From Sulfitobacter sp. D7 (GTDB lineage: Bacteria; Pseudomonadota; Alphaproteobacteria; Rhodobacterales; Rhodobacteraceae): a stretch of 64,000 bases of DNA. The stretch lies in NCBI RefSeq assembly GCF_003611275.1, contig NZ_CP020695.1:129277-193276 (forward strand), read 5' to 3'. Below the pieces are notes generated by a model, which saw only the letters and a program-made list of their open reading frames with translations, did no database searches and was not told the DNA's origin. A program made the translations under genes and the position numbers. Within the stretch, counting starts at the first letter, position 1, and each line of letters starts with the position of its first letter. Shown here in pieces: positions 1,333-19,498 of the stretch.

Positions 1333-1344
1333 CTGATATATTAG
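1333..1344. promoter_or_regulatory. Candidate GntR operator, copy 1 (divergent promoter)
   Basis: The 12-mer CTGATATATTAG is palindromic except at one base pair. It lies in the 90-bp gap between the divergent dehydratase (ATG at 1279) and GntR (ATG at 1370). The same motif recurs at 5580 (CTGATATATTAC) and, inverted, at 19487 (CTTATATATTAG), each time in another divergent promoter. This is the pattern of a regulon operator; assigning it to the adjacent GntR protein is inference. Confidence 0.65.
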
Positions 1345-1369
1345 ATTTAATAGCTATGGAAGAGCCCAC

Positions 1370-2146
1370 ATGACCTCATCGAACAGATCCGCCGCACAGA
1401 GCGCACAGACCCTCGCTAAAAGCATTTTGGGCGGCGGGACTGACTTGGGTCTGTTTGAGGGTGGGCCAACGGGGCGCGGGGTCTATGCCACGCTGCGCGA
1501 TCAGATTGTCCGGCTCGACCTGCCGCCCGGCACCCCGCTTTTGCGTGCCGAATTGGCCGAAACCCATGGGGTGAGCCTGACGCCGCTGCGCGATGCACTG
1601 CAGCAGCTCGCCAAGGAGGGGCTGGTCAAGATCTACCCGCAATCGCGCACGTTGGTGACGCCAATCGACATGTCGGCGATCCGCGAAGCGCAGTTCATGC
1701 GCATCGCGCTAGAGACCGAAGTCGTGCGCCGTTTGGCCGCCGAGATCGCGCCCGAAGCCCTGACCCGTCTGCGCAGCATCGTCGCCCTGCAAAGCAGCAT
1801 CTCGGACCAACCCGGCGACGTGCCGACTTTTCAGGAGTTGGACGAGGTGTTTCACCAGACCCTCTTTGTGGCAGCAGGCCACGTGCAAAGCCAGCGCATC
1901 ATGCGCAGTCACGCGGGCCATCTGGAACGTCTGCGCCGCCTGCATTTGGATGACATTGATGAGGCGGGGCGCATCCTGAACAACAAGGACGTGATCGGGG
2001 GCCACAGCCGGATCCTTGATGGGATTGAAGCGGGCGATGCCCCTGCCGCGATGGAGGCGCTGCGCCAACACCTGCAACGCACCGTTGACCGCATGACCGA
2101 GAAACGGGCGGCTTTCCCGGAGTATTTCACCCCGGAAAAGCCCTGA
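1370..2146 (+). CDS. GntR-family regulator, FadR subfamily (FCD domain)
   Basis: 258 residues. A winged-helix GntR domain covers roughly residues 35-105 (YATLRDQIVRLDLPPGTPL, then GVSLTPLRDALQQLAKEGLV). An all-helical FCD ligand domain follows at about 110-245. The FCD metal-site histidines are visible in ELDEVFHQTLF, GGHSRILDGI and LRQHLQRT; FCD proteins usually bind a carboxylate such as a sugar acid through this metal. The first ~33 residues are a non-conserved extension; the ATG at 1370 has GGAAGAG upstream. It sits between the two arms of the sugar-acid cluster and shares its promoter region with the UxaA-type gene, so it is the natural candidate for the CTNATATATTAG-binding regulator. 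It probably represses the pathway until the acid or its keto-deoxy product is present. Confidence 0.9.
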   Translation: MTSSNRSAAQSAQTLAKSILGGGTDLGLFEGGPTGRGVYATLRDQIVRLDLPPGTPLLRAELAETHGVSLTPLRDALQQLAKEGLVKIYPQSRTLVTPIDMSAIREAQFMRIALETEVVRRLAAEIAPEALTRLRSIVALQSSISDQPGDVPTFQELDEVFHQTLFVAAGHVQSQRIMRSHAGHLERLRRLHLDDIDEAGRILNNKDVIGGHSRILDGIEAGDAPAAMEALRQHLQRTVDRMTEKRAAFPEYFTPEKP

Positions 2147-2147
2147 T

Positions 2148-2858
2148 TCAGCGGTTGTTGGCCTTGCGCCATTCCGCGAACCTATCGAGGTTTTCCTGCT
2201 TGGTGCCCGGATAAAGTCCGATGATCCCCGCGCCGCCTTTGACCTCCTCGACGACGAAATCCTCATAGGCCGTCATCTCTACCGCCTCATCCGCGACCTC
2301 TTCGGCGATATCTGCGGGGATGATGATTACGCAGTCGTCGTCGCCCACCACGATATCACCGGGAAAGACCGGTGCATCGCCGCAGCCGACGGGGCAGTTG
2401 ATCTCTATCGCCTCATGGAGGGTCAGGTTCGTGGGGCTTGAGGGCCGCGCGTGGTAGGCGGGCATCTCGAGCGCGCCAATGGTCGCGGCATCACGCAGCC
2501 CGCCATCTGTCACCACCCCCGCCGCGCCGCGCATCATCAGACGGGTGATGAGGATATCCCCAGCACTCGCGGCACGCGCATCCTTACGGCTGTCCATCAC
2601 CAGCACATGGCCCTCGGGGCATGTCTCAATCGCGACGCGCTGCGGGTGTTCGGGATTGCGAAACTCGACCAGTTGATTGCGGTCTTCGCGGGCGGGCATA
2701 TAGCGCAGCGTGAACGCCGGGCCGACCATATTCTGCCCCTTTGCCGCGACCGGGCCGACCCCCTGCACCACCTGATTGCGCAACCCGCGTTTATACAGCG
2801 CCGTGGCCAGCGTCGCGACTGAGACCGCCTTGAGTTTCTCGCGTAGTTCGGGGGTCAT
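2148..2858 (-). CDS. RraA-like aldolase/oxaloacetate decarboxylase-family protein
   Basis: 236 residues from the ATG at 2858, which overlaps the stop of the upstream DHDPS-like gene in an ATGA junction. Longer readings of this frame start inside that gene and are rejected. The fold is that of RraA / 4-hydroxy-4-methyl-2-oxoglutarate aldolase, shown by GAAGVVTDGGLRDAATI (the metal- and substrate-binding GGxRD), GDILITRLMMRG and PGDIVVGDDDCVIIIP. Enzymes of this class cleave 4-carboxy-4-hydroxy-2-oxo acids or decarboxylate oxaloacetate; the E. coli RNase E inhibitor is a relative, but that role is not implied here. It is the last gene of the leftward unit IlvD-DHDPS-RraA, suggesting it handles a downstream keto acid of the same pathway. 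Confidence 0.85.
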   Translation of the reverse strand: MTPELREKLKAVSVATLATALYKRGLRNQVVQGVGPVAAKGQNMVGPAFTLRYMPAREDRNQLVEFRNPEHPQRVAIETCPEGHVLVMDSRKDARAASAGDILITRLMMRGAAGVVTDGGLRDAATIGALEMPAYHARPSSPTNLTLHEAIEINCPVGCGDAPVFPGDIVVGDDDCVIIIPADIAEEVADEAVEMTAYEDFVVEEVKGGAGIIGLYPGTKQENLDRFAEWRKANNR

Positions 2859-3766
2859 GCTCTCTCTCCCTTTAGTCCGTTGTCTGTTATGAATTGGTCC
2901 AGCACCGCCTGCTGCCGCTCTGTCAGGGGCCAAGCGGAGGGCGGGCGCGTGGCCCCGCAATCCTGTCCGATGGCCATAAGGGCGGCTTTGACACCGGTGA
3001 CATTGGTGCCGTTATGCTCTTCCGCGCGGATGTCCTCAAAGGCGCGCATCCCTGCGATAAGGCGGTTCGCCTCGGCGTAGTTGCCTGCATCCAGTGCCGC
3101 GTGAATGGCGACCGACCGCTCGGGCCAGACGTTGATAAGGCCCGAGGTGAACCCCCGCGCCCCCACGGCATAGAGCGGCGGTGCCCAGACCTCGGCCAGC
3201 CCGCCGACCCAGACGATATCATCCGGCGCCGCCTCAATCGCGCGGGCAAGGTTCAAAGGGTTCGGCGTGGCCCATTTGACCCCCTTCACCCCCTCGACTT
3301 CGCACAACCGCGCGATGCCCTCGGGCCCCATCGCATCATTGCGCAGATACAGCATCACCGGCAGCCCGCCCGACGCATCCCGCACCGCGCGCACATAATC
3401 GACCGTGCCACGGGGGGAGACGAAGGGATCGGGCGGTTGGTGAATCATCAACGCATCCGCCCCAGCCTCGGCGCTTGCCTTGGCCAGCGCGCAGGCATCG
3501 CGAATGCCGCGCCCGACACCCGCAAGCAGCGGCGCGCGCCCGTCGATCATCTGCGCAACCTCGCGGACCATGGTGCAGGCCTCATCATTGGTCAGCGCGT
3601 AATATTCGCCGGTGTTGCCATTCACGACCGGGATATGCACCCCGGCGGCGAGCGCGCGGTCGATGATCGGGGCCAGCTTGCGCGGCGCAATCTCTCCAGC
3701 ATCGTCATAGGGCGTCACGAGGATGCCCGAGATGCCGGTGAGCGCTTTTGATAGATCATGTGTCAT
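2855..3766 (-). CDS. DHDPS-family keto-deoxy sugar-acid dehydratase or aldolase
   Basis: 303 residues, the normal length for the dihydrodipicolinate synthase/N-acetylneuraminate lyase class I aldolase family. Visible motifs are VVNGNTGEYYAL (carboxylate-binding loop, ~48-57), MLYLRND (Tyr140, proton relay) and GVKGVKWATPN (Schiff-base lysine, probably Lys164). Beside an IlvD-type dehydratase and a ketoglutarate-semialdehyde-type dehydrogenase, the likely reaction is dehydration of 2-keto-3-deoxy-pentonate, or dehydration-decarboxylation of 5-keto-4-deoxyglucarate, giving 2-oxoglutarate semialdehyde. A retro-aldol reaction is the alternative. It follows the IlvD gene by 11 nt and overlaps the RraA gene by 4 nt, so the three are co-transcribed. 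Confidence 0.85.
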   Translation of the reverse strand: MTHDLSKALTGISGILVTPYDDAGEIAPRKLAPIIDRALAAGVHIPVVNGNTGEYYALTNDEACTMVREVAQMIDGRAPLLAGVGRGIRDACALAKASAEAGADALMIHQPPDPFVSPRGTVDYVRAVRDASGGLPVMLYLRNDAMGPEGIARLCEVEGVKGVKWATPNPLNLARAIEAAPDDIVWVGGLAEVWAPPLYAVGARGFTSGLINVWPERSVAIHAALDAGNYAEANRLIAGMRAFEDIRAEEHNGTNVTGVKAALMAIGQDCGATRPPSAWPLTERQQAVLDQFITDNGLKGERA

Positions 3767-3777
3767 AGACGTACCCC

Positions 3778-5520
3778 TCAGAAAATATCCGGCTCACCCG
3801 CCGTTTGGCCAAAGGCCGCGGTGAGATAGTCGAAGTCGCAGCCCTGATCGGCCTGCCCCACATGGCGCTGGAACATATAGCCCCAGCCCCGCTCGAACCG
3901 CGGCTCAGGGGCTTTCCAAGCGGCGCGGCGGGCGGCGAGTTCATCCTCGTCCACCAGCATGTCGAGGGTGCGCGCCTCTAGGTCCATCCGCACGATGTCG
4001 CCCGTTTTCAGCAGCGCCAGTGGCCCGCCCACGAAAGACTCCGGCGCGACATGCAGGATGCAAGCGCCGTAAGACGTGCCCGACATCCGCGCGTCTGAGA
4101 TCCGCAGCATGTCGCGGTGGCCCTGTTTCAGCAGCGCCTTCGGCATCGGCAACATGCCCCATTCGGGCATCCCCGGCCCGCCCTGCGGCCCCGCGTTACG
4201 CAGCACCAGCACATGGTCCGGCGTCACGTCGAGATTTTCGTCATCAATCGCGGCCTTCATCTCGGGGTAGCTATCAAAGACCAGCGCCGGGCCTTCGTGG
4301 CGGTGGAACTTCGGGTCGCAAGCCGCCGGTTTGATCACCGCGCCATTGGGGCAAAGGTTGCCCTTAAGCACGGCGAGCGAGCCTTCTTTATAGACCGGGT
4401 TCGACAGGGGCCGGATCACGTCGTCATTATAGACAGGCGCGCCCGCGATCCCTTCCTCCAAGGGTTTGCCGGTGCAGGTGATCGCCGACCGGTCAAGCTT
4501 ATCGCCCAACTGATCCATCAGCGCCCGCAGACCGCCCGCGAAATAGAAATCCTCCATCAGGTATTCGCTGCTGCCCAAGGGTCGGATATTGGCAATAAGC
4601 GGTGTGGTGCGGCCCAGAGCGTCCAGATCGTTCAACTCCAGCGCCACACCCGCGCGACGCGCCATTGCCAAGAGATGCACCACCGCATTGGTCGAACAGC
4701 CTGTCGCCATCGCCACCGTCGCCGCGTTCTGCACGGCGGCGGGGGTGATGATCTTGTCCGGCGTCAGGTCTTCCCAAACCATATCGACGATCCGCCGCCC
4801 GCAAGAGGCGCTCATCCGTTTGTGGCCCGCATCCGCAGCGGGGATCGAGGTGGCCCCCGGCAGGGTCAGCCCCATCGCCTCGGCAATCGCGGTCATGGTC
4901 GAAGCGGTGCCCATGGTCATGCAATGCCCATAAGACCGCGCGATGCCGCCTTCTACGCCGACCCATTCCTCGGCCGAGATCGTGCCCGCGCGGCGCTCGT
5001 CCCAGAACTTCCACGCATCCGAGCCTGAGCCAAGGGCCCGCCCCGCGTAATTGCCGCGCAGCATCGGGCCTGCGGGCAAGAAGATGAACGGCACGCCTGC
5101 GCTGATCGCGCCCATGGTCAGACCCGGCGTGGATTTGTCACAGCCGCCCATCAGCACCACCCCGTCGAGCGGATGCGAGCGGATCGTCTCTTCGGTCTCC
5201 ATCGCGATCATATTGCGGTAGAGCATCGAAGTCGGCTTGGTGAAACTCTCGTCGATGGAAATCGTAGGGATCTCCAACCCCAGCCCGCCGGCCTGCGCGA
5301 TTCCCTTTTTCACGTCCTCCGCGCGGTCGCGGAAATGGAGGTGGCAGGGGTTCATCTCGGACCAAGTGTTCAGGATGCCGATCACCGGGCGGCCTTCCCA
5401 ATCCTCGGGGCCCAGACCCATCTGCATCATGCGCGACCGATGCCCAAAACTGCGCAGATCGTCGGGGGCAAACCAGCGCGCGCTGCGCAGCTGATCGGCG
5501 GTTTTCTTGGTCTCGGTCAT
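3778..5520 (-). CDS. IlvD/Edd-family sugar-acid dehydratase (L-arabinonate dehydratase-like)
   Basis: 580 residues. The closest remembered match in layout is L-arabinonate dehydratase of Rhizobium leguminosarum (about 579 aa). Three [2Fe-2S] ligands are at the equivalent positions: Cys59 (NPCHLH), Cys127 (GGCDKS, with Lys129 as the probable carbamylated lysine) and Cys200 (YGHCMTMGT). The catalytic serine is Ser480 in DARMSGTSYG. It removes water from an aldonic acid to give a 2-keto-3-deoxy acid. Arabinonate, xylonate, galactonate or fuconate are possible, because this subfamily is promiscuous and substrate cannot be fixed from motifs. It is the first gene of the leftward operon, divergent from the HpcH aldolase across a promoter holding operator copy 2. 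A true DHAD of branched-chain synthesis is less likely given the neighbours. Confidence 0.88.
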   Translation of the reverse strand: MTETKKTADQLRSARWFAPDDLRSFGHRSRMMQMGLGPEDWEGRPVIGILNTWSEMNPCHLHFRDRAEDVKKGIAQAGGLGLEIPTISIDESFTKPTSMLYRNMIAMETEETIRSHPLDGVVLMGGCDKSTPGLTMGAISAGVPFIFLPAGPMLRGNYAGRALGSGSDAWKFWDERRAGTISAEEWVGVEGGIARSYGHCMTMGTASTMTAIAEAMGLTLPGATSIPAADAGHKRMSASCGRRIVDMVWEDLTPDKIITPAAVQNAATVAMATGCSTNAVVHLLAMARRAGVALELNDLDALGRTTPLIANIRPLGSSEYLMEDFYFAGGLRALMDQLGDKLDRSAITCTGKPLEEGIAGAPVYNDDVIRPLSNPVYKEGSLAVLKGNLCPNGAVIKPAACDPKFHRHEGPALVFDSYPEMKAAIDDENLDVTPDHVLVLRNAGPQGGPGMPEWGMLPMPKALLKQGHRDMLRISDARMSGTSYGACILHVAPESFVGGPLALLKTGDIVRMDLEARTLDMLVDEDELAARRAAWKAPEPRFERGWGYMFQRHVGQADQGCDFDYLTAAFGQTAGEPDIF

Positions 5521-5579
5521 GGAATCCTCGCCAGCTAAAACATCATCGCAAAACGGGTGGAAAACACATCTTGCTCGAA

Positions 5580-5591
5580 CTGATATATTAC
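5580..5591. promoter_or_regulatory. Candidate GntR operator, copy 2
   Basis: CTGATATATTAC differs from the copy at 1333 only in its last base. It lies in the gap between the divergent IlvD-type gene (ATG at 5520) and the HpcH aldolase (ATG at 5638), 60 nt from the first and 46 nt from the second, where a bound repressor could control both. Confidence 0.65.
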
Positions 5592-5637
5592 CGTATCACC
5601 CCAATTGTCGATACCATTTGAGGGGCGCGTCGCGAAA

Positions 5638-6438
5638 ATGTCGGGAAAAACACTCAAGCAATCGCTTCGCCAAGGCAGCCGCTTGTCGGGTTTCTGGCTC
5701 TCGCTCTGCTCACCTACGGTGACGGAGATCGCCGCGGGCAGCGGGATCGATTGGTTGTTGCTAGACATGGAACATGCGCCGAATGACCTAAGCCAGATCA
5801 CCGATCATCTGCGCGCCGCAGGCAGCGCCAATCCCAATGCGCAGATGGTGGTGCGGATGCCCTCATCCGACCAGACGATGACCAAGCGGCTGCTGGATAT
5901 CGGCGTGCAAAATCTGATGTTCCCGATGATCCAAAACGCCGAAGACGCCCGCCGCGCCGTGTCATGGACCCGCTACCCTCCCGAAGGGCTGCGCGGCATC
6001 TCGGCTACGATTCGCGCCAATAACTACGCGCGGCAGACGGATTACCTGACCACATATACAGACGCGCAATGCGTCATCGTGCAGGTCGAGACCCCCGAAG
6101 CGGTCGACCAAATTCCCGCCATCGCCGCCGTGGCCGGCGTGGACGCGATCTTTATCGGGCCGGGCGATTTGTCGTCGGCGATGGGCCATACCGGCAACCC
6201 CATGCACCCCGATGTCCAAGACAAGATCCGCGAAGCGGTCGACGCCATTCACGCCGCCGGGCTGCCTGCGGGCATCCTTGGCTACGGCGCCGATCTGGCG
6301 CGCCGCTACTTTGACAACGGTATCGAATTCGTCGCCATCGCGGGCGACGCTTGGCTGCTCACGCGGCAGATGGACGCGCTGGTGCAAACCATGGCGCAGC
6401 CCTCCCCCACTTTGACACAGCAAACCGACAAGGATTGA
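5638..6438 (+). CDS. HpcH/HpaI-family 2-keto-3-deoxy acid aldolase
   Basis: 266 residues from the ATG at 5638; a TTG at 5605 in frame is an alternative start, but the family begins like KTLKQSLRQGSRLSGFW. This is a metal-dependent class II aldolase. Motifs are LLDMEHAP (His46), VVRMP (Arg73), VQVETPEAV (Glu151, metal) and FIGPGDLS (Asp177, metal). GarL-like members cleave 2-keto-3-deoxy-glucarate to pyruvate plus tartronate semialdehyde; others act on KDR or 4-hydroxy-2-ketoheptanedioate. The aldehyde dehydrogenase follows 2 nt later. The cluster therefore holds both a cleavage route (this enzyme) and a dehydration route (the DHDPS-like protein) for the same kind of intermediate. Confidence 0.87.
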   Translation: MSGKTLKQSLRQGSRLSGFWLSLCSPTVTEIAAGSGIDWLLLDMEHAPNDLSQITDHLRAAGSANPNAQMVVRMPSSDQTMTKRLLDIGVQNLMFPMIQNAEDARRAVSWTRYPPEGLRGISATIRANNYARQTDYLTTYTDAQCVIVQVETPEAVDQIPAIAAVAGVDAIFIGPGDLSSAMGHTGNPMHPDVQDKIREAVDAIHAAGLPAGILGYGADLARRYFDNGIEFVAIAGDAWLLTRQMDALVQTMAQPSPTLTQQTDKD

Positions 6439-6440
6439 TC

Positions 6441-7982
6441 ATGAGCGCTGACAGCAAGACATTTCACCCCCACGGCAAGCACTTGATCGCAGGCGAATGG
6501 ATCGGCGGCGGAGAAACCTTCGCCAATTCCCCCGCCACCGGCGAAAGCGACCAATTCCAAAGCGGCACCCCGGCCCATGTGGACCGCGCTTGCGAAGCCG
6601 CCGAGGACGCCTTTTGGTCCTACGCCTATTCAAGCCGCGAGAGCCGCGCCGATTTCCTTGACGCCATCGCAGACGAGATGGAGGCCCGCGCGGATATCAT
6701 CACAGAAGTTGGCGCGCGCGAATCTGGCCTGCCGACTGCCCGCCTTCAGGGCGAGCGCGGACGGACCATGGGGCAGCTTCGCCTCTTTGCCGATCACATC
6801 CGCAAAGGCGCCCATCTGGACCGTCGTGTCGACGGTGCCCTGCCCGAGCGCCAACCCATGCCCCGCCCCGACATCCGCATGATCCAGCGCCCCATCGGCC
6901 CGGTTGCGATATTCGGCGCGTCGAATTTTCCGCTGGCATTCTCCACCGCAGGCGGTGACACCGCCGCGGCGCTGGCGGCGGGCTGCCCGGTCATCGTGAA
7001 AGGCCATTCCGCCCATCCCGGCACGGGGGAGATTGTGGCCGAAGCGATCCATGCCGCGATCAAGAAATGCGACATTCATCCCGGTGTCTTCTCCCTCATC
7101 CATGCCAACAGCCGTGAAGTGGGCCAGACGCTGGTGCAGCATCCGCTGATCAAAGCCGTTGGCTTCACCGGCTCCCTCGGTGGAGGCCGCGCGCTGTTTG
7201 ACCTCTGCGCGCAACGGCCCGAGCCGATCCCGTTCTTCGGCGAGTTGGGCTCGGTCAATCCGATGTTCGTTCTGGCCGAGGCCACTCGAAACCGCGGCGC
7301 GGAAATCGGCGCTGGCTGGGCCGGGTCGCTGACCATGGGCGCGGGGCAGTTCTGCACCAACCCCGGCATCGCGGTCGTGGCCAAGGGGGCCGAGGGCGAT
7401 GCCTTTGTCGCAGCCGCGAAAGAGGCGCTTGAGCAGGTCGGCCCGCAGGTCATGCTGACCGACGGCATCGCCAAAGCCTACCGCGACGGTAAGGAACGTT
7501 TCACCGGGCGCAACGCGGTACGCGCGCTGGTGAGCAATGACAGCGAGGGGCGCAGCGCCCAGCCGAACCTCTTTGAAACCGATGCCGATACCTACCTACA
7601 AGACCACGCACTTGGCGAAGAGGTCTTTGGCCCCTTGGGTCTGGTGCTGCGGGTCTCGTCGGGCGATGAGATGCAAGAGCTTGCCAAAGGGTTCGAAGGC
7701 CAGCTAACCGCGACACTCCAGATGGACGAGGGCGACACCGAAGCCGCCAAGGCGCTGATGCCGATCCTTGAACGGAAAGCGGGCCGGGTGCTGGTGAACG
7801 GCTTCCCCACCGGGGTCGAGGTTTGCGATGCCATGGTGCACGGCGGCCCCTACCCGGCCTCCACCAACTTCGGCGCGACCTCCGTCGGCACCATGGCGAT
7901 CCGCCGCTTCCTGCGACCTGTCTCCTACCAGAACCTGCCCGAGGCCTTGCTGCCCGAAGATCTGCGCGGGGCATCGACATGA
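6441..7982 (+). CDS. Aldehyde dehydrogenase, 2-oxoglutarate semialdehyde dehydrogenase type
   Basis: 513 residues from the ATG at 6441, two bases after the aldolase stop; the longer in-frame reading runs into that gene. The N-terminus HLIAGEWIGGGETF and the ~510-residue length resemble the KGSADH branch of NAD(P)-dependent aldehyde dehydrogenases. Catalytic residues are in place: Glu268 in FFGELGSVNP and the nucleophile Cys305 in GAGQFCTNPG. The cofactor loop is VGFTGSLGGGRAL. The expected reaction is oxidation of 2,5-dioxopentanoate to 2-oxoglutarate, the last step of Weimberg-type pentose-acid and glucarate/galactarate pathways, which suits the neighbouring dehydratases. The stop overlaps the start of the hydroxyacid dehydrogenase (ATGA). 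Confidence 0.9.
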   Translation: MSADSKTFHPHGKHLIAGEWIGGGETFANSPATGESDQFQSGTPAHVDRACEAAEDAFWSYAYSSRESRADFLDAIADEMEARADIITEVGARESGLPTARLQGERGRTMGQLRLFADHIRKGAHLDRRVDGALPERQPMPRPDIRMIQRPIGPVAIFGASNFPLAFSTAGGDTAAALAAGCPVIVKGHSAHPGTGEIVAEAIHAAIKKCDIHPGVFSLIHANSREVGQTLVQHPLIKAVGFTGSLGGGRALFDLCAQRPEPIPFFGELGSVNPMFVLAEATRNRGAEIGAGWAGSLTMGAGQFCTNPGIAVVAKGAEGDAFVAAAKEALEQVGPQVMLTDGIAKAYRDGKERFTGRNAVRALVSNDSEGRSAQPNLFETDADTYLQDHALGEEVFGPLGLVLRVSSGDEMQELAKGFEGQLTATLQMDEGDTEAAKALMPILERKAGRVLVNGFPTGVEVCDAMVHGGPYPASTNFGATSVGTMAIRRFLRPVSYQNLPEALLPEDLRGAST

Positions 7983-8941
7983 GCGGCGATCTGATCGGCC
8001 CCGTCGCCGTGCTCGACGCGATGCCGGAGGATATGCAGAATAAAGTGCGCGGCTATGCCGAAGGGCTCGACCTGCGCTTTGCGGCGTCCTATTCCGAAGA
8101 GGATTTCGCCAAGGCGGTGAAAGGTGCCGCCTATATCGTTCCGCGCGGGCGCGGCCTTCCGGCGCCGGTGCTGCGGGGGGCCGATAGCGTGCGCCTCGTG
8201 CATCAATGGGGCACCGGCTATGACAAGATCCCGGTGGATCTGGCGAAAGAAATGGGCGTGACCGTGGCGCGCAGCCCCGGCGTTAACGCCCCCACCATTG
8301 CGGATCTCACCATCGGCATGATGATCGCCGCCCTGCGCCGCATTCCGCTGCACTATAACAACACCCGCGCGGGCAAGTGGATCGTGCCAGAGATCGTCCC
8401 CGGCGCGCGGGACCTCAGCAGTCAAAAGGTCGGGCTGATCGGTTTTGGTGCCATCGGGCAACTCGTGGCGAAACGGCTGACGGGCTTTGACTGCGAGGTG
8501 CTCTACTACCGCCGCTCAGGGGAGGCTGAAGGCACCAGCGCGCGCTATGCCGAGCGCGACGAAATTCTTGAGACCTGCGATATCGTCAGCCTGCACATGC
8601 CGCTGACGGAGGCGTCGCACCACACCATCGGCACGCCGGAACTGGCGCAGATGAAATCCGACGCCCTGCTGGTCAACACCGGACGCGGAGGGCTGATTGA
8701 TGAGGCGGCTCTGATCGACACGCTCACCCATAAACGCATCGCGGGCGCGGCCTTGGATGTGTTTACCGAAGAGCCTGTCGAGCCGGACAACCCACTTCTG
8801 CGGCTCGATAACGTCCTGCCCCTGCCCCACATCGGCGGCCACAGTGAGGATAACCTCAAACGTATGGTCGGCCATTGGACCAGCAACATCCGCGCCTTTC
8901 ACGAAGGGCGCGGGATCGACGAAAGCTGTATCGTCACCTAA
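7979..8941 (+). CDS. D-isomer-specific 2-hydroxyacid dehydrogenase
   Basis: 320 residues from the ATG at 7979 (4-bp overlap with the previous gene). The NAD(P) fold shows GLIGFGAIGQLVAKRL (G155-x-G157-x-x-G160). The catalytic triad is complete: Arg236 (NTGRGGLID), Glu265 (EEPVEPDNPL) and His284 (LPHIGGHSEDN). Where many NAD enzymes carry an acidic residue at the end of the second strand, this one reads YYRRSG, which would favour NADP; that is inference. The family interconverts 2-oxo acids and D-2-hydroxy acids (glyoxylate, hydroxypyruvate, 2-ketogluconate). As the last gene of the rightward unit it could reduce an aldolase product such as tartronate semialdehyde/hydroxypyruvate, or oxidise a hydroxyacid substrate. 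Confidence 0.88.
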   Translation: MSGDLIGPVAVLDAMPEDMQNKVRGYAEGLDLRFAASYSEEDFAKAVKGAAYIVPRGRGLPAPVLRGADSVRLVHQWGTGYDKIPVDLAKEMGVTVARSPGVNAPTIADLTIGMMIAALRRIPLHYNNTRAGKWIVPEIVPGARDLSSQKVGLIGFGAIGQLVAKRLTGFDCEVLYYRRSGEAEGTSARYAERDEILETCDIVSLHMPLTEASHHTIGTPELAQMKSDALLVNTGRGGLIDEAALIDTLTHKRIAGAALDVFTEEPVEPDNPLLRLDNVLPLPHIGGHSEDNLKRMVGHWTSNIRAFHEGRGIDESCIVT

Positions 8942-8946
8942 ACCAT

Positions 8947-8976: not shown

Positions 8977-8983
8977 GTACCGC

Positions 8984-9298: not shown

Positions 9299-9323
9299 AA
9301 AGGGGCCTTTCGGGGTGTTGGCG

Positions 9324-10040: not shown

Positions 10041-10043
10041 CGG

Positions 10044-10751
10044 CTACCCTCCCGCCGCGGCGCGGCGCATCATATTGGCCAGCCGCAAGGCCGAAGTCGC
10101 AGCCCCATAGCCGTTGTCGATATTCACCACCGTCACCCCCGGCGCGCAGCTGGCAAGTATCGAATCGAGCGCGACCCTCCCGCCGCGGGCCACACCATAG
10201 CCCACGGAGGTCGGCACACCAATGACCACCCCCGGCACCAGCCCGGCCACGACCGACGGCAGGGCCGCGTCCATCCCGGCGAAGACGATCACCACATCCA
10301 TTTCGCGCAACAACTCCTCCCGCGTGAGCAGACGCCAAAGCCCGGCCACGCCCACGTCTGACACTTCGGTCGCGTCCATTCCACCGTAAGCCAACGTACG
10401 CTTCGCCTCTTCCATCGGGGCATAGTCTGACGTCCCCGCGCTGACCAAACCGATGCGTGGGGTGCTGGCCAACGGGCCAACCTCTCCGAGAATGGCGGTG
10501 CGAGAGGCGGCGCAGTAATCAACCAACTGACGCATATTTTCTGGCAGGTCGCCGAACTGCTCTGCCGTCAGCCTGGTCAAGAGAAGCCTGCGCCCCTCCG
10601 TCGCCGCGTCACCGATGATCGCGGCGATTTGCGGCACTGATTTATGCTCGCAAAGCACGGCTTCTTCGATGCCGATGCGCCCCCCGCGCCCCCGGTCAAA
10701 GGTCACGTCCGGATGCCCGTCGGGGCCTTTCTCATTGATGGACAAATGCAC
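10044..10751 (-). CDS. larB: LarB: pyridinium-3,5-bisthiocarboxylic acid mononucleotide (NPN cofactor) biosynthesis, carboxylase/hydrolase step
   Basis: 235 residues, GTG start overlapping the end of larE by 20 bp. LarB carboxylates the pyridine ring of nicotinic acid adenine dinucleotide and hydrolyses the phosphoanhydride, giving the precursor of the nickel-pincer nucleotide. The C-terminal two thirds are the PurE-like AIRC domain: RIGLVSAGTSDYAPMEEAKR (~102-121), DVGVAGLWRLL, VIVFAGMDAALPSVVAGL, and IGVPTSVGYGVARGG. The N-terminal part (DVTFDRGRGGRIGIEEAVLCEHKS) corresponds to the EAVFC segment of the family. The pairing with larE in the same operon makes the call firm. No larC or larA homologue is visible in the window. 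Confidence 0.93.
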   Translation of the reverse strand: MHLSINEKGPDGHPDVTFDRGRGGRIGIEEAVLCEHKSVPQIAAIIGDAATEGRRLLLTRLTAEQFGDLPENMRQLVDYCAASRTAILGEVGPLASTPRIGLVSAGTSDYAPMEEAKRTLAYGGMDATEVSDVGVAGLWRLLTREELLREMDVVIVFAGMDAALPSVVAGLVPGVVIGVPTSVGYGVARGGRVALDSILASCAPGVTVVNIDNGYGAATSALRLANMMRRAAAGG

Positions 10752-11517
10752 TTCCTCTTGAATAGGCCCGCAGATCCACCGCGCGCCCGTCGTCCGTGGC
10801 CCGCCGGACCTGCGTCAGAATCGCCGCGCGCTTTTGGGCGGAAAGACCTTCGTAAATAGGCGGATCAAGCTCAACCACCCACCCCCCGCGCAAGCGTCTG
10901 CAGCGCAGGGTGACATTGCCCAACGCCGCACGCAGCAGGGTTTCGACGCGATCGATCACCGCCAGATCCGCAGGCTCCACCCGCAGGCCGGTCTCAATCC
11001 GGCTGGCCAAACAAGGGGCCGCGGGCAGTTCGGCCAGTTCCCCCAGCCCAAGCGCCCGCGCCAAGGCCCGCACATCGGCTTTTGACATCTGCGCATCGAC
11101 GAACGGGTGCAGCACGCTATGCTCCGCCGCAGCCTGCAAACCGGGGCGGTAGTCTGACAGATCGTCGGTATTGGTGCCCGCCGCCACCAACGGCCCCATC
11201 CGCGCCAATGTGCCATAGAGGTTCGACTTGCAGAAATAGCAGCGGTTCACCGGGTTGGCGCGGTAGGACGGATCGGCGAATTCGCCCGCATCTACCAGTT
11301 TCAGCGGCAGGCCCCAAGCGGCTGCAAAGTCTTTCACCCGGGCGGTCGCCGCCGAAGGGACCGCAGCCGAAACCGCGTGGCAAAGCGTAACCCCCTCCGT
11401 CCCCCGCACCTTGGCCGCGGCGGCAGAGAGGGTGAGGCTATCGATCCCCCCGCTAAGCGCGATGGTCAACGATGCGGGCCGCGCGAGGGCGGCTTGGAGC
11501 GCGGCAGGAACCGTCAC
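10732..11517 (-). CDS. larE: LarE: ATP-dependent sulfur transferase for nickel-pincer cofactor
   Basis: 261 residues from a GTG at 11517 that overlaps the GntR stop (GTGA). The PP-loop pyrophosphatase motif LSGGIDSLTL is at residues 21-30 and activates the precursor carboxylate by adenylation. Cys93 and Cys96 (NRCYFCKSNLYGTL) and Cys169 (APCLASRIETG) form the three-cysteine pattern of LarE proteins proposed to carry a [4Fe-4S] cluster that delivers sulfur catalytically. In the single-cysteine type, sulfur comes from sacrificing the enzyme's own cysteine. GTNTDDLSDYRPG is the substrate-binding segment. It is encoded directly before larB. Confidence 0.93.
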   Translation of the reverse strand: MTVPAALQAALARPASLTIALSGGIDSLTLSAAAAKVRGTEGVTLCHAVSAAVPSAATARVKDFAAAWGLPLKLVDAGEFADPSYRANPVNRCYFCKSNLYGTLARMGPLVAAGTNTDDLSDYRPGLQAAAEHSVLHPFVDAQMSKADVRALARALGLGELAELPAAPCLASRIETGLRVEPADLAVIDRVETLLRAALGNVTLRCRRLRGGWVVELDPPIYEGLSAQKRAAILTQVRRATDDGRAVDLRAYSRGSAFVHQ

Positions 11518-12269: not shown

Positions 12270-12305
12270 GATAACAACATCCTTTCGCCGATTGGAGCAC
12301 CTGTA

Positions 12306-12318
12306 TGACAAGCTGTCA
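12306..12318. promoter_or_regulatory. Inverted repeat TGACA-N3-TGTCA upstream of GntR/lar unit
   Basis: A perfect 5+3+5 dyad, 37 nt upstream of the GntR start in the divergent control region. On the minus strand the context reads ATTGACAG, which also precedes the related site at 12408. Candidate operator of the adjacent FadR-type regulator. Confidence 0.45.
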
Positions 12319-12407
12319 ATAATCAGTAACTAGGGCCATTCGCTGCATTACAAGCAGAATACAACATTACAAGTAAGAGGAAATCCCCCTAAATTTGTAT
12401 TTTTAAT

Positions 12408-12420
12408 TGACAGGCTGACG
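12408..12420. promoter_or_regulatory. Second, degenerate TGACA-N3-TGACG site in the same gap
   Basis: AATTGACAGGCTGACG shares ATTGACAG and spacing with the site at 12306 read on the other strand. It sits about 100 nt before the TAXI protein gene, where it could control the rightward operon. The remainder of 12270-12523 is AT-richer than its surroundings and holds no gene. Confidence 0.35.
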
Positions 12421-12523
12421 ATTCCCCCGCAGTCTGCGGTCCTACGGCAAGAGGATGTCAGGGGGGAGCCCGGAACCCATCCAGTTACTGCCGATACACA
12501 GTTAAAACTCGGGAGGAGTTTCT

Positions 12524-13483: not shown

Positions 13484-13503
13484 TCCACCCCTGACGAGAA
13501 ACG

Positions 13504-13532
13504 GGTCGGCCGGGGCCATGCTCCGTCCGACC
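13504..13532 (+). other. Possible intercistronic hairpin after the TAXI gene
   Basis: GGTCGG and CCGACC pair around a partly complementary centre in the 130-nt gap between the binding protein and permease genes. Such a hairpin could stabilise the upstream mRNA and raise binding-protein levels relative to the permease. Weak evidence. Confidence 0.3.
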
Positions 13533-13613
13533 TACACCCCTAAAGGCCCTGCCCCGCGCATTCCGCGCGATGACGCATAAGGGCCGCCTTCCACTCTAGA
13601 CGCGAGAACCCCC

Positions 13614-15488
13614 ATGCAACTGTCGATCTTTCTGGACAAGATGCCCCTGATTACCCGTATAGCAAGGCTGATCCTGATCGGCATGGCTGCTTGGCATCTC
13701 TACGTCGCCTTCGTTGGCCCGCCTAACCCCTATATTATGCGCGGCGTGCACGTCGCCCTGGCGCTGCTGCTGATTTTCTTGACGGTGAACCGCAAGGGTC
13801 TGCGCAATGATGTGCCCAGTTGGTATGATGTGGTCATCGGGCTTATCGCGGCGGGGGCCGCACTCTATCCTTCCTTTAACCTTAATTACATCACGCAGCG
13901 GTTTCTCTACGTCGACCCTCTGATGCCGATGGATATCGTGGTGGGGATCACTCTTGTGGTTCTGCTGCTTGAGGCAACTCGACGGATGCTCGGGCCGATG
14001 CTGCCGATTACCGCCCTGCTGTTTCTCGGCTACGGTCTGGCTTTCACCTCCACCCTGCCGTCGGTGATCCTTGAGCAATTGTTCATGACACCCGAAGGCA
14101 TCTTCGGCATCCCGATCGCGGTCTCGGCAACCTATATGGTGCTCTTCATTCTCTTCGGCTCGTTGGTCGAGCGGATGGGCGTCGGACAGCTCTTTATGGA
14201 TTTTGCGGTGGCGCTTACGGGGCGTCAGGTCGGCGGCCCGGCCAAGGTGGCCTGTGTGACCTCCGGCCTCTTCGGCTCGGTCTCTGGCTCTGCCGTGGCC
14301 AATGTGATGACGACCGGCACCTTCTCTATTCCGCTGATGAAACGCATGGGGTTCAAACCCGCCTTCGCGGGCGCGGTTGAGGCCGTGGCGTCGACGGGCG
14401 GGCAGATCATGCCCCCCGTGATGGGGGCTGCGGCCTTTGTCATGGCGGAATATCTCGGCGTGGGATACCTGACGGTCGCGAAATATGCGCTGGCCCCCGC
14501 GGTTCTGTTCTATGTCGCGCTCTTCGCGGCGGTCCATTTTGAGGCCAAGCGCAAGGGCATCGGCTCAGTCCCGAAAGAGGATCAAGTGCCGCTGAAGATC
14601 GTGCTGCTTGAACGCGGCCACCTGTTCTTGCCGTTGGCGATTATCGTGGGCGTGCTGATGATGGGCTACTCTGCTCCCTATGCAGCACTTTGCGGTATCA
14701 TCTCGGTCGTGCCGGTCGCGGCCCTGCGCAAGACGACACGGCATTACGTCACCATCGACAACATCCTCGAAGCGCTTGAGGGCGGCGCGCGCAACGTGTT
14801 GGCGATTGCTGCGGCCTGTGCCTGTGCGGGCATCGTTGTGGGCGTGATCGACATCACCGGTCTTGGCCTCACCTTCTCGAACTTCGTGATCGAAGCGGCC
14901 CAAGACACGCTGGTCATCGCGCTGTTCCTGTCGATGATTGCGGGTATCATTCTTGGTATGGGAATGCCGACAACACCCGCCTATATCGTGCAGGTCGCCC
15001 TGCTGGTTCCGGCGCTGGTGAAGCTGGGCGTACAGGTCGAAGCGGCGCACCTCTTTGTGTTCTACTTCGCCATCCTGTCGGCCATCACACCCCCCGTCGC
15101 CATGGCGGTCTATGCAGCCAACACCCTATCGCACGCCAAGATCGTCGAGGCGAGTTGGGCTGCGGTGAAACTCGGTGCCACCGGCTTTATCGTGCCCTTC
15201 ATGTTCGTCTATGAACCGGCGATCCTGATGCAGGGTTCGGTCACCCAGATCACGCTGGTCCTGTTGCAGGCCACCATTGGCGTCATCCTGCTGGCCGCCG
15301 CCTTGCAGCGCTACTACTTCGGCAGACTGTCCAATGTGCTGTCGGTGGTGCTGTTCGGGGCGTCCTTGCTGCTGATCTACCCCGATCTGCGGCTCACCGC
15401 CTCGGGGTTGGTCATCGCGGGCGTTATCCTGGCCTTCCAAAAGGCCAGGAACCCCAACCCGAAAAGCCAAGCCGCCACACATACTTAA
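13614..15488 (+). CDS. Fused DctQM-type TRAP permease (TAXI system)
   Basis: 624 residues, almost entirely hydrophobic, with the small four-helix DctQ-like part (about 1-120) fused to the large DctM part. Segments typical of the DctM transport domain are GLFGSVSGSAVANVMTTG (~222-239), GGQIMPPVMGAAAFVMAEY, and IILGMGMPTTPAYIVQ (~443-458), with AILSAITPPVAMAVYAAN near 480-500. It runs on an ion gradient in the inner membrane and is served by the TAXI binding protein upstream. A TPP enzyme starts 31 nt after its stop, in the same presumed operon. Confidence 0.93.
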   Translation: MQLSIFLDKMPLITRIARLILIGMAAWHLYVAFVGPPNPYIMRGVHVALALLLIFLTVNRKGLRNDVPSWYDVVIGLIAAGAALYPSFNLNYITQRFLYVDPLMPMDIVVGITLVVLLLEATRRMLGPMLPITALLFLGYGLAFTSTLPSVILEQLFMTPEGIFGIPIAVSATYMVLFILFGSLVERMGVGQLFMDFAVALTGRQVGGPAKVACVTSGLFGSVSGSAVANVMTTGTFSIPLMKRMGFKPAFAGAVEAVASTGGQIMPPVMGAAAFVMAEYLGVGYLTVAKYALAPAVLFYVALFAAVHFEAKRKGIGSVPKEDQVPLKIVLLERGHLFLPLAIIVGVLMMGYSAPYAALCGIISVVPVAALRKTTRHYVTIDNILEALEGGARNVLAIAAACACAGIVVGVIDITGLGLTFSNFVIEAAQDTLVIALFLSMIAGIILGMGMPTTPAYIVQVALLVPALVKLGVQVEAAHLFVFYFAILSAITPPVAMAVYAANTLSHAKIVEASWAAVKLGATGFIVPFMFVYEPAILMQGSVTQITLVLLQATIGVILLAAALQRYYFGRLSNVLSVVLFGASLLLIYPDLRLTASGLVIAGVILAFQKARNPNPKSQAATHT

Positions 15489-15519
15489 ATCTTAGAACGA
15501 ACGAAACGGAGCCTTCTCC

Positions 15520-17226
15520 ATGCTGCAAAAAACTTCCCTCAAGGCCCGGACCGGCGGACAGGTCCTTGTGGATCAACTGCTGATCCACGGTGCCGACACC
15601 GCCTACTGCGTGCCCGGCGAAAGCTATCTTGAGGTGCTCGATGCGCTGCATGATGTGCAGGACCGTTTCACCCTCATCAACGCGCGGCACGAAGCCGGGG
15701 CCGCCAATATGGCCGAGACCTATGGCAAGCTGACCGGCACCCCCGGCATCTGCATGGTCACCCGCGGCCCCGGCGCCTGCCACGCGGCCATCGGCGTTCA
15801 TATCGCGCAACAAGACAGCACGCCGATGATCCTCCTGGTGGGGCAGATCGCCCGCGACACGACCGACCGTGAGGCGTTTCAAGAAGTCGACTACCGCGCC
15901 ATGTTTGGCCCCATCGCCAAATGGGCCACCCAGATCGACGACCCGGCGCGGGTGCCGGAATATATGGCCCGCGCCTTCCGCGTGGCGACCTCGGGCCGCC
16001 CCGGTCCGGTGGTGATCTCCCTGCCCGAAGACATGCTGACCGAGGTGGTCTCCGTCGCCGACGCGCGGCCCTATACGGCGACCCATGCTGGGCTGTCGCC
16101 TGACAATCTCGACATGCTCAAGACCGAGATCGCGCAGGCCGAACGGCCCCTGCTGCTGCTCGGCGGCTCTGGCTGGTCGGATGAGAGTGCGGCGGCCATC
16201 ACCCGCTTTGCCGAGGCCAACAAGATCCCCGTCACCACGTCCTTCCGGCGGCAAGACATCGTGAACAACCTCTCGCCGGTCTATGCCGGGGATTTCGGCA
16301 CCTCTACCGCGCCCAGCCTCTATGCGCATCAACGCGATGCGGATCTGCTCGTGGTGATCGGCGCGCGTTTGGGGGAGATGACGACCAAGACCTACACCAC
16401 CATGCAATCGCCCAACCCCGAGACGCGGCTGGTGCATCTCTACCCCGACGCGGATGAGATCGGGCGCGTCTATTCGCCAGATCTGGGCATCGCTGCAGCA
16501 CCCGTTTCTGTCGCTGCCGCCTTGGACGGTGTCGATCTGGGCCGCGCTGAGGCATGGGACGCATGGTGCGAGAAACTCCACGCCGATTACCTCACCGATA
16601 CCGAAGCGCCCAATGGCGGCGACTGGGATCTCGACATGGGGGTGGCACTTGCGCAGCTGCGCGACGAGCTGCCCGATGATGTGGTGGTCACGCTCGACGC
16701 GGGCAACCACACCGGCTGGGCGCAACGGTTCCTGCGCTTTGGCCGTCCGGGCCGGATTGTCGGCTCGACCTGTGGTGCGATGGGCTATTCCGTGCCCGCC
16801 GCCGTCGCGGCCTCGATTGCCGAGCCGGAGCGCCTGACGCTCTCCTTCGTCGGCGATGGCGGCTTTATGATGAGCGGCAATGAACTTGCCACCGCCGCGC
16901 AATATGGCGGGCGGCCCATCGTGCTGCTGTTCAACAACGGCATCTATGGCACGATCCGCATGCACCAAGAACGCGACCACCCCGAGCGCATCTCGGGCAC
17001 CACTTTGCAGAACCAAGATTTCGTCAAGATGGCCGAGGGGCTGGGCGCTCATGCGGAACGGGTTACCAAGACCGAGGATTTCGCCGCCGCCTTCATCCGC
17101 GCCCGCGAAAGTGGCCGCCCGGCCCTGATCGAGCTTGTAACCGACCCCGAGCAGATCTCGACCCGCACCACGATCAGCAAGCTGCGCGCGGCGGCCCAGA
17201 AAAAAGTCGACGCCGACCAGCGCTAA
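15520..17226 (+). CDS. Thiamine-diphosphate enzyme (acetolactate synthase-like, probable 2-oxoacid decarboxylase)
   Basis: 568 residues with the three-domain layout of the acetolactate synthase/benzoylformate decarboxylase family. The ThDP-activating glutamate is Glu58 in NARHEAGAANMA. The metal/ThDP motif is VGDGGFMMSGNELATAAQYG, followed by LLFNNGIYG. The biosynthetic ALS is normally encoded with a small regulatory subunit and sits with ilv genes; here none is present and the neighbours are a TAXI-TRAP transporter and a FAD-linked hydroxyacid dehydrogenase. A catabolic role is therefore more likely: non-oxidative decarboxylation or carboligation of a 2-oxo acid formed by the FAD enzyme. The substrate is unknown. 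Confidence 0.87.
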   Translation: MLQKTSLKARTGGQVLVDQLLIHGADTAYCVPGESYLEVLDALHDVQDRFTLINARHEAGAANMAETYGKLTGTPGICMVTRGPGACHAAIGVHIAQQDSTPMILLVGQIARDTTDREAFQEVDYRAMFGPIAKWATQIDDPARVPEYMARAFRVATSGRPGPVVISLPEDMLTEVVSVADARPYTATHAGLSPDNLDMLKTEIAQAERPLLLLGGSGWSDESAAAITRFAEANKIPVTTSFRRQDIVNNLSPVYAGDFGTSTAPSLYAHQRDADLLVVIGARLGEMTTKTYTTMQSPNPETRLVHLYPDADEIGRVYSPDLGIAAAPVSVAAALDGVDLGRAEAWDAWCEKLHADYLTDTEAPNGGDWDLDMGVALAQLRDELPDDVVVTLDAGNHTGWAQRFLRFGRPGRIVGSTCGAMGYSVPAAVAASIAEPERLTLSFVGDGGFMMSGNELATAAQYGGRPIVLLFNNGIYGTIRMHQERDHPERISGTTLQNQDFVKMAEGLGAHAERVTKTEDFAAAFIRARESGRPALIELVTDPEQISTRTTISKLRAAAQKKVDADQR

Positions 17227-17238
17227 AGGATGACCCAG

Positions 17239-18687
17239 ATGACCACTCTGACCGCGCCGCGCCGCGCGCCCGAAACGGACGGGCAAAACCATAGCGCTCT
17301 GCTCGATGATCTGCGCCAAGCCATCGGTGCCGCCCATGTCGTGACCGACGCCAAGGATTTCGACGCGCGGCTGATCGAAGATCGCGGGCTGCGGCGCGGC
17401 ACGGCGCTGGCCCTCATCCGCCCCGGCTCCACCGAGGAAGTCGCCGCCTGCATGCGTCTGTGCCATGCCGCACAGGTACCGGTAACCCCACAGGGCGGCA
17501 ACACCGGTCTGGCTGGGGGCGGCGTGCCGGACGGCGGGATCATCCTCACGACTGACCGGTTGAACCGCATTCGGGGGGTCGATCCGACCAACGCAACCAT
17601 GACGGTTGAGGCGGGCTGTATCCTCGCCAATATCCAAGCGGCTGCGGATGAGGTTGATGCGCTCTTCCCGCTGTCGCTCGCCTCCGAAGGGTCCTGCCAG
17701 ATCGGCGGCAATCTTTCGACCAACGCGGGCGGCACGGCGGTGCTGCGCTATGGCAATACCCGCGATCTGGTGCTGGGGATCGAAGCGGTTCTGCCCGATG
17801 GCCGGGTGCTGAATGATCTGGGCGGGCTGCGGAAAAACAACACTGGCTTTGACCTCAAACACCTCTTTATCGGGGCCGAAGGAACGCTTGGCATCATCAC
17901 GGCAGCGGTGATCAAGCTTTTCCCCAAGCCCACCGCCCGCGCCACGGCGCTGGTGGCCTGCACCGGCCCCGACCCCGCGCTCGCGCTCTATGCCCGGATG
18001 CGTGGCCAAACGGCGGACACGCTCTCGACTTTTGAATATATCGACCGGCTTGGCCTGCAAATGGTGATCGACCACGCGCCCGGCTGTAGCGACCCGATGG
18101 CAGAGACCCATCCGGCCTATTGCCTGATCGAACTCACCGGCAATGGCGCGCAGGCCGACCTTGATGCCCGGCTGGAGGCGGCGTTGGAAGCAGCGTTTGA
18201 GGCGGAAGAAATCATCGACGCCGTGATCGGCGCATCGGAAGCGCAGAAGGACGCGCTTTGGGCGCTGCGGGAAAACCTCTCAGAAGCGCAAAAGCCTGAG
18301 GGCGCGTCGATTAAGCATGACGTATCCGTGCCGGTCTCGCGCGTGGCTGATTTCATCCGCGAGGCGACGCAAGCATGCATGGAACATATGCCCGGACTGC
18401 GCCCCTGCCCCTTTGGCCATTTCGGCGACGGCAACCTGCATTTCAACCTGTCGCGCCCCGTCGATATGGCCGATGCCGATTTCCTTGCAGAATACAGCAC
18501 GTTCAACCGCATCGTGCATGATATCGTGCACCAGATGGGCGGCTCATTCTCGGCGGAACATGGCATTGGCACGTTCAAACGGGCCGAACTGCGCCGCTAT
18601 AAAGACCCGGTCGCGCTGGAGTTGATGGAGCAGATCAAAGCCGTGCTCGACCCGGGCCAATTGATGAACCCGGGCAAGGTGCTTTGA
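17239..18687 (+). CDS. FAD-linked D-2-hydroxyacid dehydrogenase (GlcD/D2HGDH family)
   Basis: 482 residues from the ATG at 17239. AAAGGA lies eight bases before it, whereas the in-frame ATG at 17230 overlaps that site, so the later start is preferred. The PCMH-type FAD domain shows PVTPQGGNTGLAGGGVPDGG, QIGGNLSTNAGGTAVLRYG and GAEGTLGIITAAVIKLFPKP. The C-terminal FAD-oxidase domain has PFGHFGDGNLHFN and FSAEHGIG, with the metal-site histidines. Enzymes of this family oxidise D-lactate, D-2-hydroxyglutarate or glycolate to 2-oxo acids, passing electrons to quinone or ETF. It lies 12 nt behind the TPP enzyme, suggesting hydroxyacid to oxoacid to aldehyde as the order of steps. Confidence 0.9.
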   Translation: MTTLTAPRRAPETDGQNHSALLDDLRQAIGAAHVVTDAKDFDARLIEDRGLRRGTALALIRPGSTEEVAACMRLCHAAQVPVTPQGGNTGLAGGGVPDGGIILTTDRLNRIRGVDPTNATMTVEAGCILANIQAAADEVDALFPLSLASEGSCQIGGNLSTNAGGTAVLRYGNTRDLVLGIEAVLPDGRVLNDLGGLRKNNTGFDLKHLFIGAEGTLGIITAAVIKLFPKPTARATALVACTGPDPALALYARMRGQTADTLSTFEYIDRLGLQMVIDHAPGCSDPMAETHPAYCLIELTGNGAQADLDARLEAALEAAFEAEEIIDAVIGASEAQKDALWALRENLSEAQKPEGASIKHDVSVPVSRVADFIREATQACMEHMPGLRPCPFGHFGDGNLHFNLSRPVDMADADFLAEYSTFNRIVHDIVHQMGGSFSAEHGIGTFKRAELRRYKDPVALELMEQIKAVLDPGQLMNPGKVL

Positions 18688-18691
18688 CGGC

Positions 18692-19438
18692 TTAGCCGCG
18701 CCCGACAAATGGCATCTTGGTGGCCATCACGGTGACAAACATGGCGTTGGAGTCGAGCGACAGCTTCGCCATGTATGACAGCGTTTCGGCCACGTCGTTC
18801 ACATCCATGCGCGGCTCGGACATGCGGCTGCCGTTGGGTTGCAGGATGCCGTCTGCCATCCGCTCCGTCATCTCGCTGGCCGCATTGCCGATGTCGATCT
18901 GCCCGCACGCGATGTCATGCGCGCGCCCATCGAGCGACAGCGCGCGGGTGAGCCCGGTGATCGCGTGTTTCGTCGCCGTATATGGCACCGAGAGCGGGCG
19001 CGGCACATGGGCGCTGATCGAGCCGTTGTTGATGATCCGCCCGCCCTTTGGGCTTTGGCGTTTCATCAAGGCGAAGGCCGCGCGGGCGCAGAGGAATGAC
19101 CCGGTCAGATTGGTCGCGACGATGTCATTCCACTCCGCCACGCTGAGCGCATCCACCTCAACCGCCGGACCATTGCGCCCGGCATTGTTGAACAGCAGGT
19201 CCAGCCGCCCGAAGGTCGCCTCCACTCTGTCGAAAAGCGCGTCGACATCGGCCTCAACCCCCACGTCCGCAGCCACGGCGATATGCCCCTGCCCGTCAAG
19301 CGTAGCACAGGCAGCGTCGATCTTATCCTGCTGCCGCCCGGTGAGAACGAGAGTGAAACCGTCTTTCGCCAACCGCTGCGCGCAGGCGAGGCCGACGCCG
19401 CTCCCGGCCCCTGTGATCAGAGCAATCTTTTGGTTCAT
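18692..19438 (-). CDS. Short-chain dehydrogenase/reductase
   Basis: 248 residues of classical SDR type. The cofactor loop is ITGAGSGVGLACA (TGxxxGxG, 9-16), NNAG is at 84-87, and the active site is Ser140, Tyr153, Lys157 (NNGSISAHVPRPLSVPYTATKH). The sequence VLTGRQ after the second strand suggests NADP or NAD with an Arg contact, but this is not decisive. It is convergent with the FAD dehydrogenase (4 nt between stops) and divergent from the TetR gene. Its upstream region carries operator copy 3, so it is likely part of the sugar-acid regulon, perhaps as the sugar or sugar-acid dehydrogenase that feeds the dehydratases. Confidence 0.9.
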   Translation of the reverse strand: MNQKIALITGAGSGVGLACAQRLAKDGFTLVLTGRQQDKIDAACATLDGQGHIAVAADVGVEADVDALFDRVEATFGRLDLLFNNAGRNGPAVEVDALSVAEWNDIVATNLTGSFLCARAAFALMKRQSPKGGRIINNGSISAHVPRPLSVPYTATKHAITGLTRALSLDGRAHDIACGQIDIGNAASEMTERMADGILQPNGSRMSEPRMDVNDVAETLSYMAKLSLDSNAMFVTVMATKMPFVGRG

Positions 19439-19486
19439 TCTACTATCCCATTCCTTATCGTTGCGCGTCGGGCCGTTACTGAGAAT

Positions 19487-19498
19487 CTAATATATAAG
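19487..19498. promoter_or_regulatory. Candidate GntR operator, copy 3
   Basis: CTAATATATAAG; read on the minus strand it is CTTATATATTAG, matching copies 1 and 2 at 11 and 10 of 12 positions. It lies 49 nt upstream of the SDR start and 100 nt from the TetR start, so it probably acts on the SDR promoter. Confidence 0.6.

Follow-up and report, generated by a model that had tools for sequence, protein, structure and literature searches.

The 64,000-nucleotide stretch of Sulfitobacter sp. D7 analyzed here (contig NZ_CP020695.1, positions 129,277 to 193,276; the window) carries a gene cluster that, predicted from its gene families, can fairly be read as a pentonate or sugar-acid pathway. A gene for a UxaA-type protein of the galactarate/altronate dehydratase family (2..1279, minus strand) extends past the left end of the window. 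It scored below the cut-off of TIGR03248, and its orthologue on a 98% identical plasmid of Sulfitobacter sp. W074 is annotated 'altronate dehydratase family protein'. The divergent neighbor (1370..2146, plus strand) encodes a GntR-family regulator with an N-terminal winged helix-turn-helix (PF00392, 52.2 bits, cut-off 27) and a C-terminal FCD domain (PF07729, 66.4 bits, cut-off 24.3). Because of these domains it was assigned to the FCD-type GntR proteins. Its recognition helix reads VSLTPLRDAL and its wing PQSRT. On the minus strand follow genes for an RraA-like protein (2148..2858, PF03737), a DHDPS-family aldolase/dehydratase (2855..3766, PF00701) and an IlvD/Edd-family L-arabinonate dehydratase (3778..5520; NF009559, 1085.6 bits, above the cut-off of 882). 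The plus strand then encodes an HpcH/HpaI aldolase (5638..6438, start taken from the orthologue's annotation), an aldehyde dehydrogenase, of NADP+ type by the orthologue's annotation (6441..7982), and a D-isomer 2-hydroxyacid dehydrogenase (7979..8941).

The first-pass annotation had described one near-palindromic AT-rich 12-mer in three divergent gene gaps, and all three copies were found at the coordinates given there. Site 1, CTGATATATTAG (1333..1344, plus strand), lies between the UxaA-type (minus) and GntR (plus) genes and is the predicted operator of the regulator encoded at 1370. Site 2, CTGATATATTAC (5580..5591, plus strand), lies between the IlvD (minus) and HpcH (plus) genes and is a candidate second operator. 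Both are located at about the middle of their gaps. Site 3, CTTATATATTAG (19487..19498, minus strand), lies between genes for a short-chain dehydrogenase/reductase (SDR; minus) and a TetR-type regulator (plus). It is a doubtful operator and more probably belongs to the promoter of the SDR gene. The shared core CTNATATATTA occurred three times in the window, which is above chance (mean 0.00 in 100 dinucleotide shuffles).

Next to the window's regulator, the 12-mer is widely conserved. GntR-homologue loci were collected from one genome set (19) and from 30 family genomes. With the window's own locus left out, 48 upstream regions remained, among them the near-duplicates L039/L109, L032/L033 and L037/L040. 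The 220 bp before each tblastn hit were scored (homologues 40-98% identical), and each region was shuffled 100 times. The consensus CTRATATATTAG was present with at most one mismatch in 43 of the 48 regions and exact in 30, whereas the dinucleotide shuffles gave a mean of 0.02 of 48 and a largest value of 1. The exact 12-mer was still present before homologues of 40-42% identity, and the perfect palindrome CTAATATATTAG was the commonest form in distant homologues. The distance from the site to the tblastn hit downstream of it ranged from 25 to ~200 bp, and both orientations occurred. The site was carried by 24 of the 29 family genomes with a fetched best GntR homologue, and site 1 was exact in all ten GntR-bearing genomes of the Sulfitobacter set.

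The second gap behaved in the same way. Upstream of IlvD, CTGATATATTAC or CTAATATATTAC was found with at most one mismatch in 13/13 loci that have the order GntR..DHDPS-IlvD and cover the gap (near-duplicates among them: L151, L032/L033/L211 and L037/L040). An HpcH relative lies across this gap in nine of the 13, in some by annotation. The sequence of L034 stops short of gap 2; L038 has its IlvD gene elsewhere, and the site is absent there. In more distant loci GntR and IlvD often diverge from one common gap with a single site. The comparison thus shows that, throughout the bacterial family, CTRATATATTAG occurs in the putative promoters of GntR and of its predicted L-arabinonate dehydratase operon. 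Three Paracoccus loci (L042 at 4117, L043 at 3952, L045 at 4063) have an extra copy of the motif, one or two mismatches from CTGATATATTAG and ~6 kb from GntR, in comparable positions; these copies perhaps mark another operon of the regulon.

In the whole genome (3.96 Mb), exact CTNATATATNAG was found at three places, namely 1333, 19487 and C1:430269. Allowing one mismatch to CTGATATATTAG or CTAATATATTAG gave seven places: the three window sites, C1:430269, C1:2075383, C1:1905094 and C6:2561. As four of these lie outside the window, the motif is not restricted to the sugar-acid cluster. Copies with two mismatches were rarer than those of the reversed control (52 against 129 in one genome scan, 26 against 76 in another) and thus give no hint of a large hidden regulon. 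Among 198 family genomes, exact CTGATATATTAG occurred at 20 places in 17 genomes and the reversed control had 11 matches. A GntR or IlvD relative lies within 1.5 kb at seven of the 20 (the window's own, L060, L064, L065, L069, L070 and L072), and a further one (L061) has a GntR homologue ~5 kb away. The number of remaining exact places is close to that of the control matches, so the exact 12-mer predicts poorly without its gene neighborhood. A position weight matrix (PWM) was built from 36 hand-picked GntR-upstream sites, leaving out homologues above 90% identity, most near-duplicates, regions without a site and all SDR sites. It scored site 1 at 22.7 bits, site 3 at 18.4 and site 2 at 16.8.

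How easily a single copy can mislead is illustrated by C1:430269-430280 (L001 1501-1512). Here the perfect palindrome CTGATATATCAG (20.9 bits) lies 13 bp before the start of a gamma-glutamyltransferase-like gene. A matching gene was found in 57 of 58 genomes, and the best 30 loci of the genus were compared. The palindrome was exact in two, the window's genome and the genome with the most similar protein, and the other 28 had at least three mismatches. Gamma-glutamyltransferase was therefore rejected as a regulon member and its site attributed to chance. A perfect-looking promoter site can thus arise by chance, and conservation alone tells the cases apart.

The operator CTRATATATTAG does not follow the pattern usual for the FadR subfamily, TKGT-N2/3-ACMA, a consensus from PMC4494728 that is typical, with BioR and NanR as named exceptions. 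TKGT-N3-ACMA had no match in the window (1.58 expected; searched with the 3-nt spacing). We compared the residues that face DNA in 77 aligned regulator matches, including three from the window; 20 of them are further, mostly more distant homologues, taken from 33 remaining matches. The rows contain near-duplicates, and motif alignment, not an alignment with the FadR protein itself, was used to assign FadR positions. No arginine was found at the position of FadR Arg45 in 63 of the 77, and 52 of these 63 have the site with at most one mismatch. The other 14 keep the arginine, and none has such a site. The position of FadR Glu34 follows the same division, with Arg in 63/63 of the former and Glu (12) or Lys (2) in the latter. 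The window's GntR has Leu70 in place of Arg45 and Arg59 at the Glu34 position. Both further FCD regulators encoded in the window (9324 and 11514) belong to the 14 with Arg45. By this comparison, the GntR homologues with CTRATATATTAG appear to have an altered DNA-reading surface in common, and residues and operator together form a coherent predicted specificity signature. Four Arg45-keeping GntR homologues (L203, L206, L210 and L044) have CTGATATGCTAG or CTAATATGCTAG upstream, perhaps a sister operator.

The operator-like palindrome is conserved in the orthologous gaps, and the GntR protein encoded at 1370 is the obvious reader of sites 1 and 2. Both sites very likely serve this FCD-type regulator as operators, as predicted from their conservation, and regulators of this group very probably control sugar-acid breakdown in many marine bacteria. 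A GntR dimer would occupy each site, one per divergent gap near its middle. From gap 1 it would repress the uxaA operon and gntR itself (autoregulation), and from gap 2 the araD/ilvD-DHDPS-RraA and HpcH-aldehyde dehydrogenase-2-hydroxyacid dehydrogenase operons. A sugar acid or 2-keto-3-deoxy acid may bind the FCD domain and release GntR. With somewhat less confidence, we favor the view that this FCD-GntR clade has recoded its DNA recognition, in that it lost the helix arginine, gained Arg at the Glu34 position, acquired a PQS(R/K/G)T wing and reads CTRATATATTAG without GT...AC. An operator lacking the GT...AC core, which FadR reads with Arg45, would then pair with the loss of Arg45, the exchange of Glu34 to Arg and this wing.

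Several observations weigh against this interpretation. Five of the 48 GntR upstream regions (L113, L120, L133, L134 and L137) have no site within one mismatch, L137 having an exact copy just within the aligned N-terminal frame. Site 2 ends in C and has the lowest PWM score of the three. Among the 63 regulators without Arg45, 11 lack a site at up to one mismatch. Five of these have the PQS wing and five have RQSRT instead, four of the latter being without a site even at two mismatches. Conversely, a relative of the site with two mismatches, mostly CTGATATGCTAG, occurs at five of the 14 Arg45 regulators. The boundary of the signature is thus not absolute. Residue signature and operator may also both go back to a single ancestral event in one clade. 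Finally, TGATATATT resembles an extended -10 element, so operator and promoter may overlap.

The first-pass annotation had joined all three sites, and with them the SDR, into one sugar-acid regulon. This is supported for the UxaA/GntR and IlvD/HpcH gaps, where comparison of orthologous promoters found the motif conserved, and is not supported for the SDR gap, where conservation is partial. That a single GntR regulon includes site 3, with the SDR acting in the sugar-acid pathway, is possible but doubtful. Site 3 differs from CTAATATATTAG by one mismatch, its score exceeds that of site 2, and it is preserved in L145 despite divergence of the rest of the gap. Its T at position 3, however, is absent from all 36 PWM sites. 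Thirteen SDR upstream regions were compared (12 genomes of the genus Sulfitobacter and one outgroup). Five have CTTATATATTAG, two CATATATATTAG, one TTGATATATTAG, two CTTTTATATTAA and three none. TATATTA is retained in 10 of the 13, and the left half differs. A site within one mismatch was present in six of the ten genomes with GntR and in none of the three without, which is suggestive, yet not significant (hypergeometric probability ~0.12) among related genomes. The GntR-bearing G431 and G402 have CATATATATTAG and G401/G404 have CTTTTATATTAA, although site 1 is exact in every GntR-bearing genome of the set.

The surroundings of the SDR gene (18692..19438, minus strand, PF00106) also speak against its inclusion. 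SDR and TetR genes are absent beside the matching cluster on the one Pseudosulfitobacter plasmid examined, where the sugar-acid, lar, TRAP transporter, thiamine pyrophosphate (TPP) enzyme and flavin adenine dinucleotide oxidase genes are present and are followed by glutathione S-transferase (GST) and sugar-transport genes. On one S. pontiacus plasmid the SDR gene sits between a GST gene and a TPP enzyme gene. A search of 394 genomes, almost every one from a different genus, gave SDR homologues of at best 59% identity. At 29 such loci besides the window's, none had a site within one mismatch and one (L106) had a two-mismatch site; homologues of 59% identity or less are too distant for safe orthology, so these missing sites weigh little. 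No support was found for the SDR as the enzyme producing the aldonic acid. Of its 215 NCBIfam matches, the best 25 were all below their cut-offs.

The gap has a palindrome of TetR type of its own, TAGACGACCGGTCTA (19573..19587), a TAGAC-N5-GTCTA box that adjoins the start of the TetR gene (19599..20219, plus strand). In 149 family genomes this box was found just upstream of 12/12 TetR homologues outside the window's genome, six of which have a zinc dehydrogenase downstream. Their 1.5-kb flanks contained neither the AT 12-mer at up to two mismatches nor an SDR gene. Site 3 is most likely a promoter element and at most a weak, lineage-specific operator. A sigma-70 scan, however, picked another pair on the SDR strand (19614-19587) and not site 3, which weakens its reading as a -10 box and slightly raises the odds of an operator.

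It is improbable that all three 12-mers are sigma-70 -10 regions (extended -10 TGnTATATT) that have been kept as promoters and not as operators. TATATT is indeed contained in each window site, and it is the TATATTA part that persists at the SDR. However, the outer CT and AG are also conserved at the GntR and IlvD genes, TATTTT replaces TATATT in some sites, and in gaps 1 and 2 the sigma-70 scans detected no pair resembling a promoter. A plain -10 box does not account for the conservation of the outer pairs, the free orientation and the variable distance. That another shared regulator reads the palindrome is very improbable: a second GntR gene does occur in the clusters of Amylibacter, Pseudooceanicola, Maritimibacter and Pseudosulfitobacter, but the site accompanies the GntR gene from genus to genus; it is absent from four of the five homologues with the RQSRT wing and, at up to one mismatch, from all 14 with the canonical Arg.

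The second GntR genes lie near aldolase and aldehyde dehydrogenase genes (L036 14388-15053, L037 15470-16159, L040 11075-11764, L211 14437-15135). Those of L036, L037 and L040 are 47.8-49.6% identical to the window's GntR, and that of L211 is known by annotation only. The nearby site in L036, L110 and L111 is CTGAAATATTAG. The W074 plasmid has the same annotated gene order as the window. Nickel-pincer genes (window 10044-11517; L151 11211-13705) flank the cluster. On one side are those for LarB and an 'adenine nucleotide alpha hydrolase', the latter presumably LarE-like. On the other side, just beyond the window and beyond the UxaA gene on the W074 plasmid, are those for a nickel-dependent lactate racemase and LarC. 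The lar genes possibly belong to a sugar-acid epimerase.

If correct, these predictions would name an operator and a regulon for an uncharacterized GntR clade. The clade would be a test case for specificity change in FadR-type winged helices, in which the helix arginine and the GT...AC core would both have been lost, and the residue-to-operator rule could serve to annotate sugar-acid regulons throughout the bacterial family and in related groups. The unconserved gamma-glutamyltransferase site and the partly conserved SDR site caution that a single AT-rich 12-mer is insufficient to assign a gene to a regulon.

In the open-access literature, the letters of CTAATATATTAG occurred in two papers and those of CTGATATATTAG in one, all unrelated by their title and the start of their abstract. 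TATATTAG together with GntR was not found there either, RegPrecise and subscription papers being outside the search. Nor was an off-consensus operator with an Arg45/Glu34 exchange, in a search that did not include the residue exchange itself. The TetR protein at 19599 resembles CurR/AcuR-type regulators, its best NCBIfam matches, in being followed by a zinc-binding dehydrogenase and preceded by the TAGAC-N5-GTCTA box, but stays below their equivalog cut-offs (CurR 199.4 of 300; AcuR 114 of 247). BioR is likewise a GntR/FadR-subfamily regulator with an off-consensus AT-rich palindrome. Compared by description, it differs in its operator, TTATMKATAA (PMC4494728), and in its target, biotin metabolism (PMC4554459). 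Repressors of the FCD-GntR type that act on an operator within a divergon are already known as a kind. Members of the FadR (FCD) subfamily named in PMC4494728 (DgoR, UxuR, GntR, LldR) combine a winged helix-turn-helix and FCD domain with AT-rich palindromic operators and carboxylate or sugar-acid target genes, and that paper reports single sites in divergons near the middle of the gap, as here. It also gives the TKGT/ACMA consensus and the contact of FadR Arg45 with G. The window's clade departs from this subfamily in its operator CTRATATATTAG, which lacks the GT...AC core, and in having Leu or Gln at the Arg45 position, Arg at the Glu34 position and the PQS(R/K/G)T wing.

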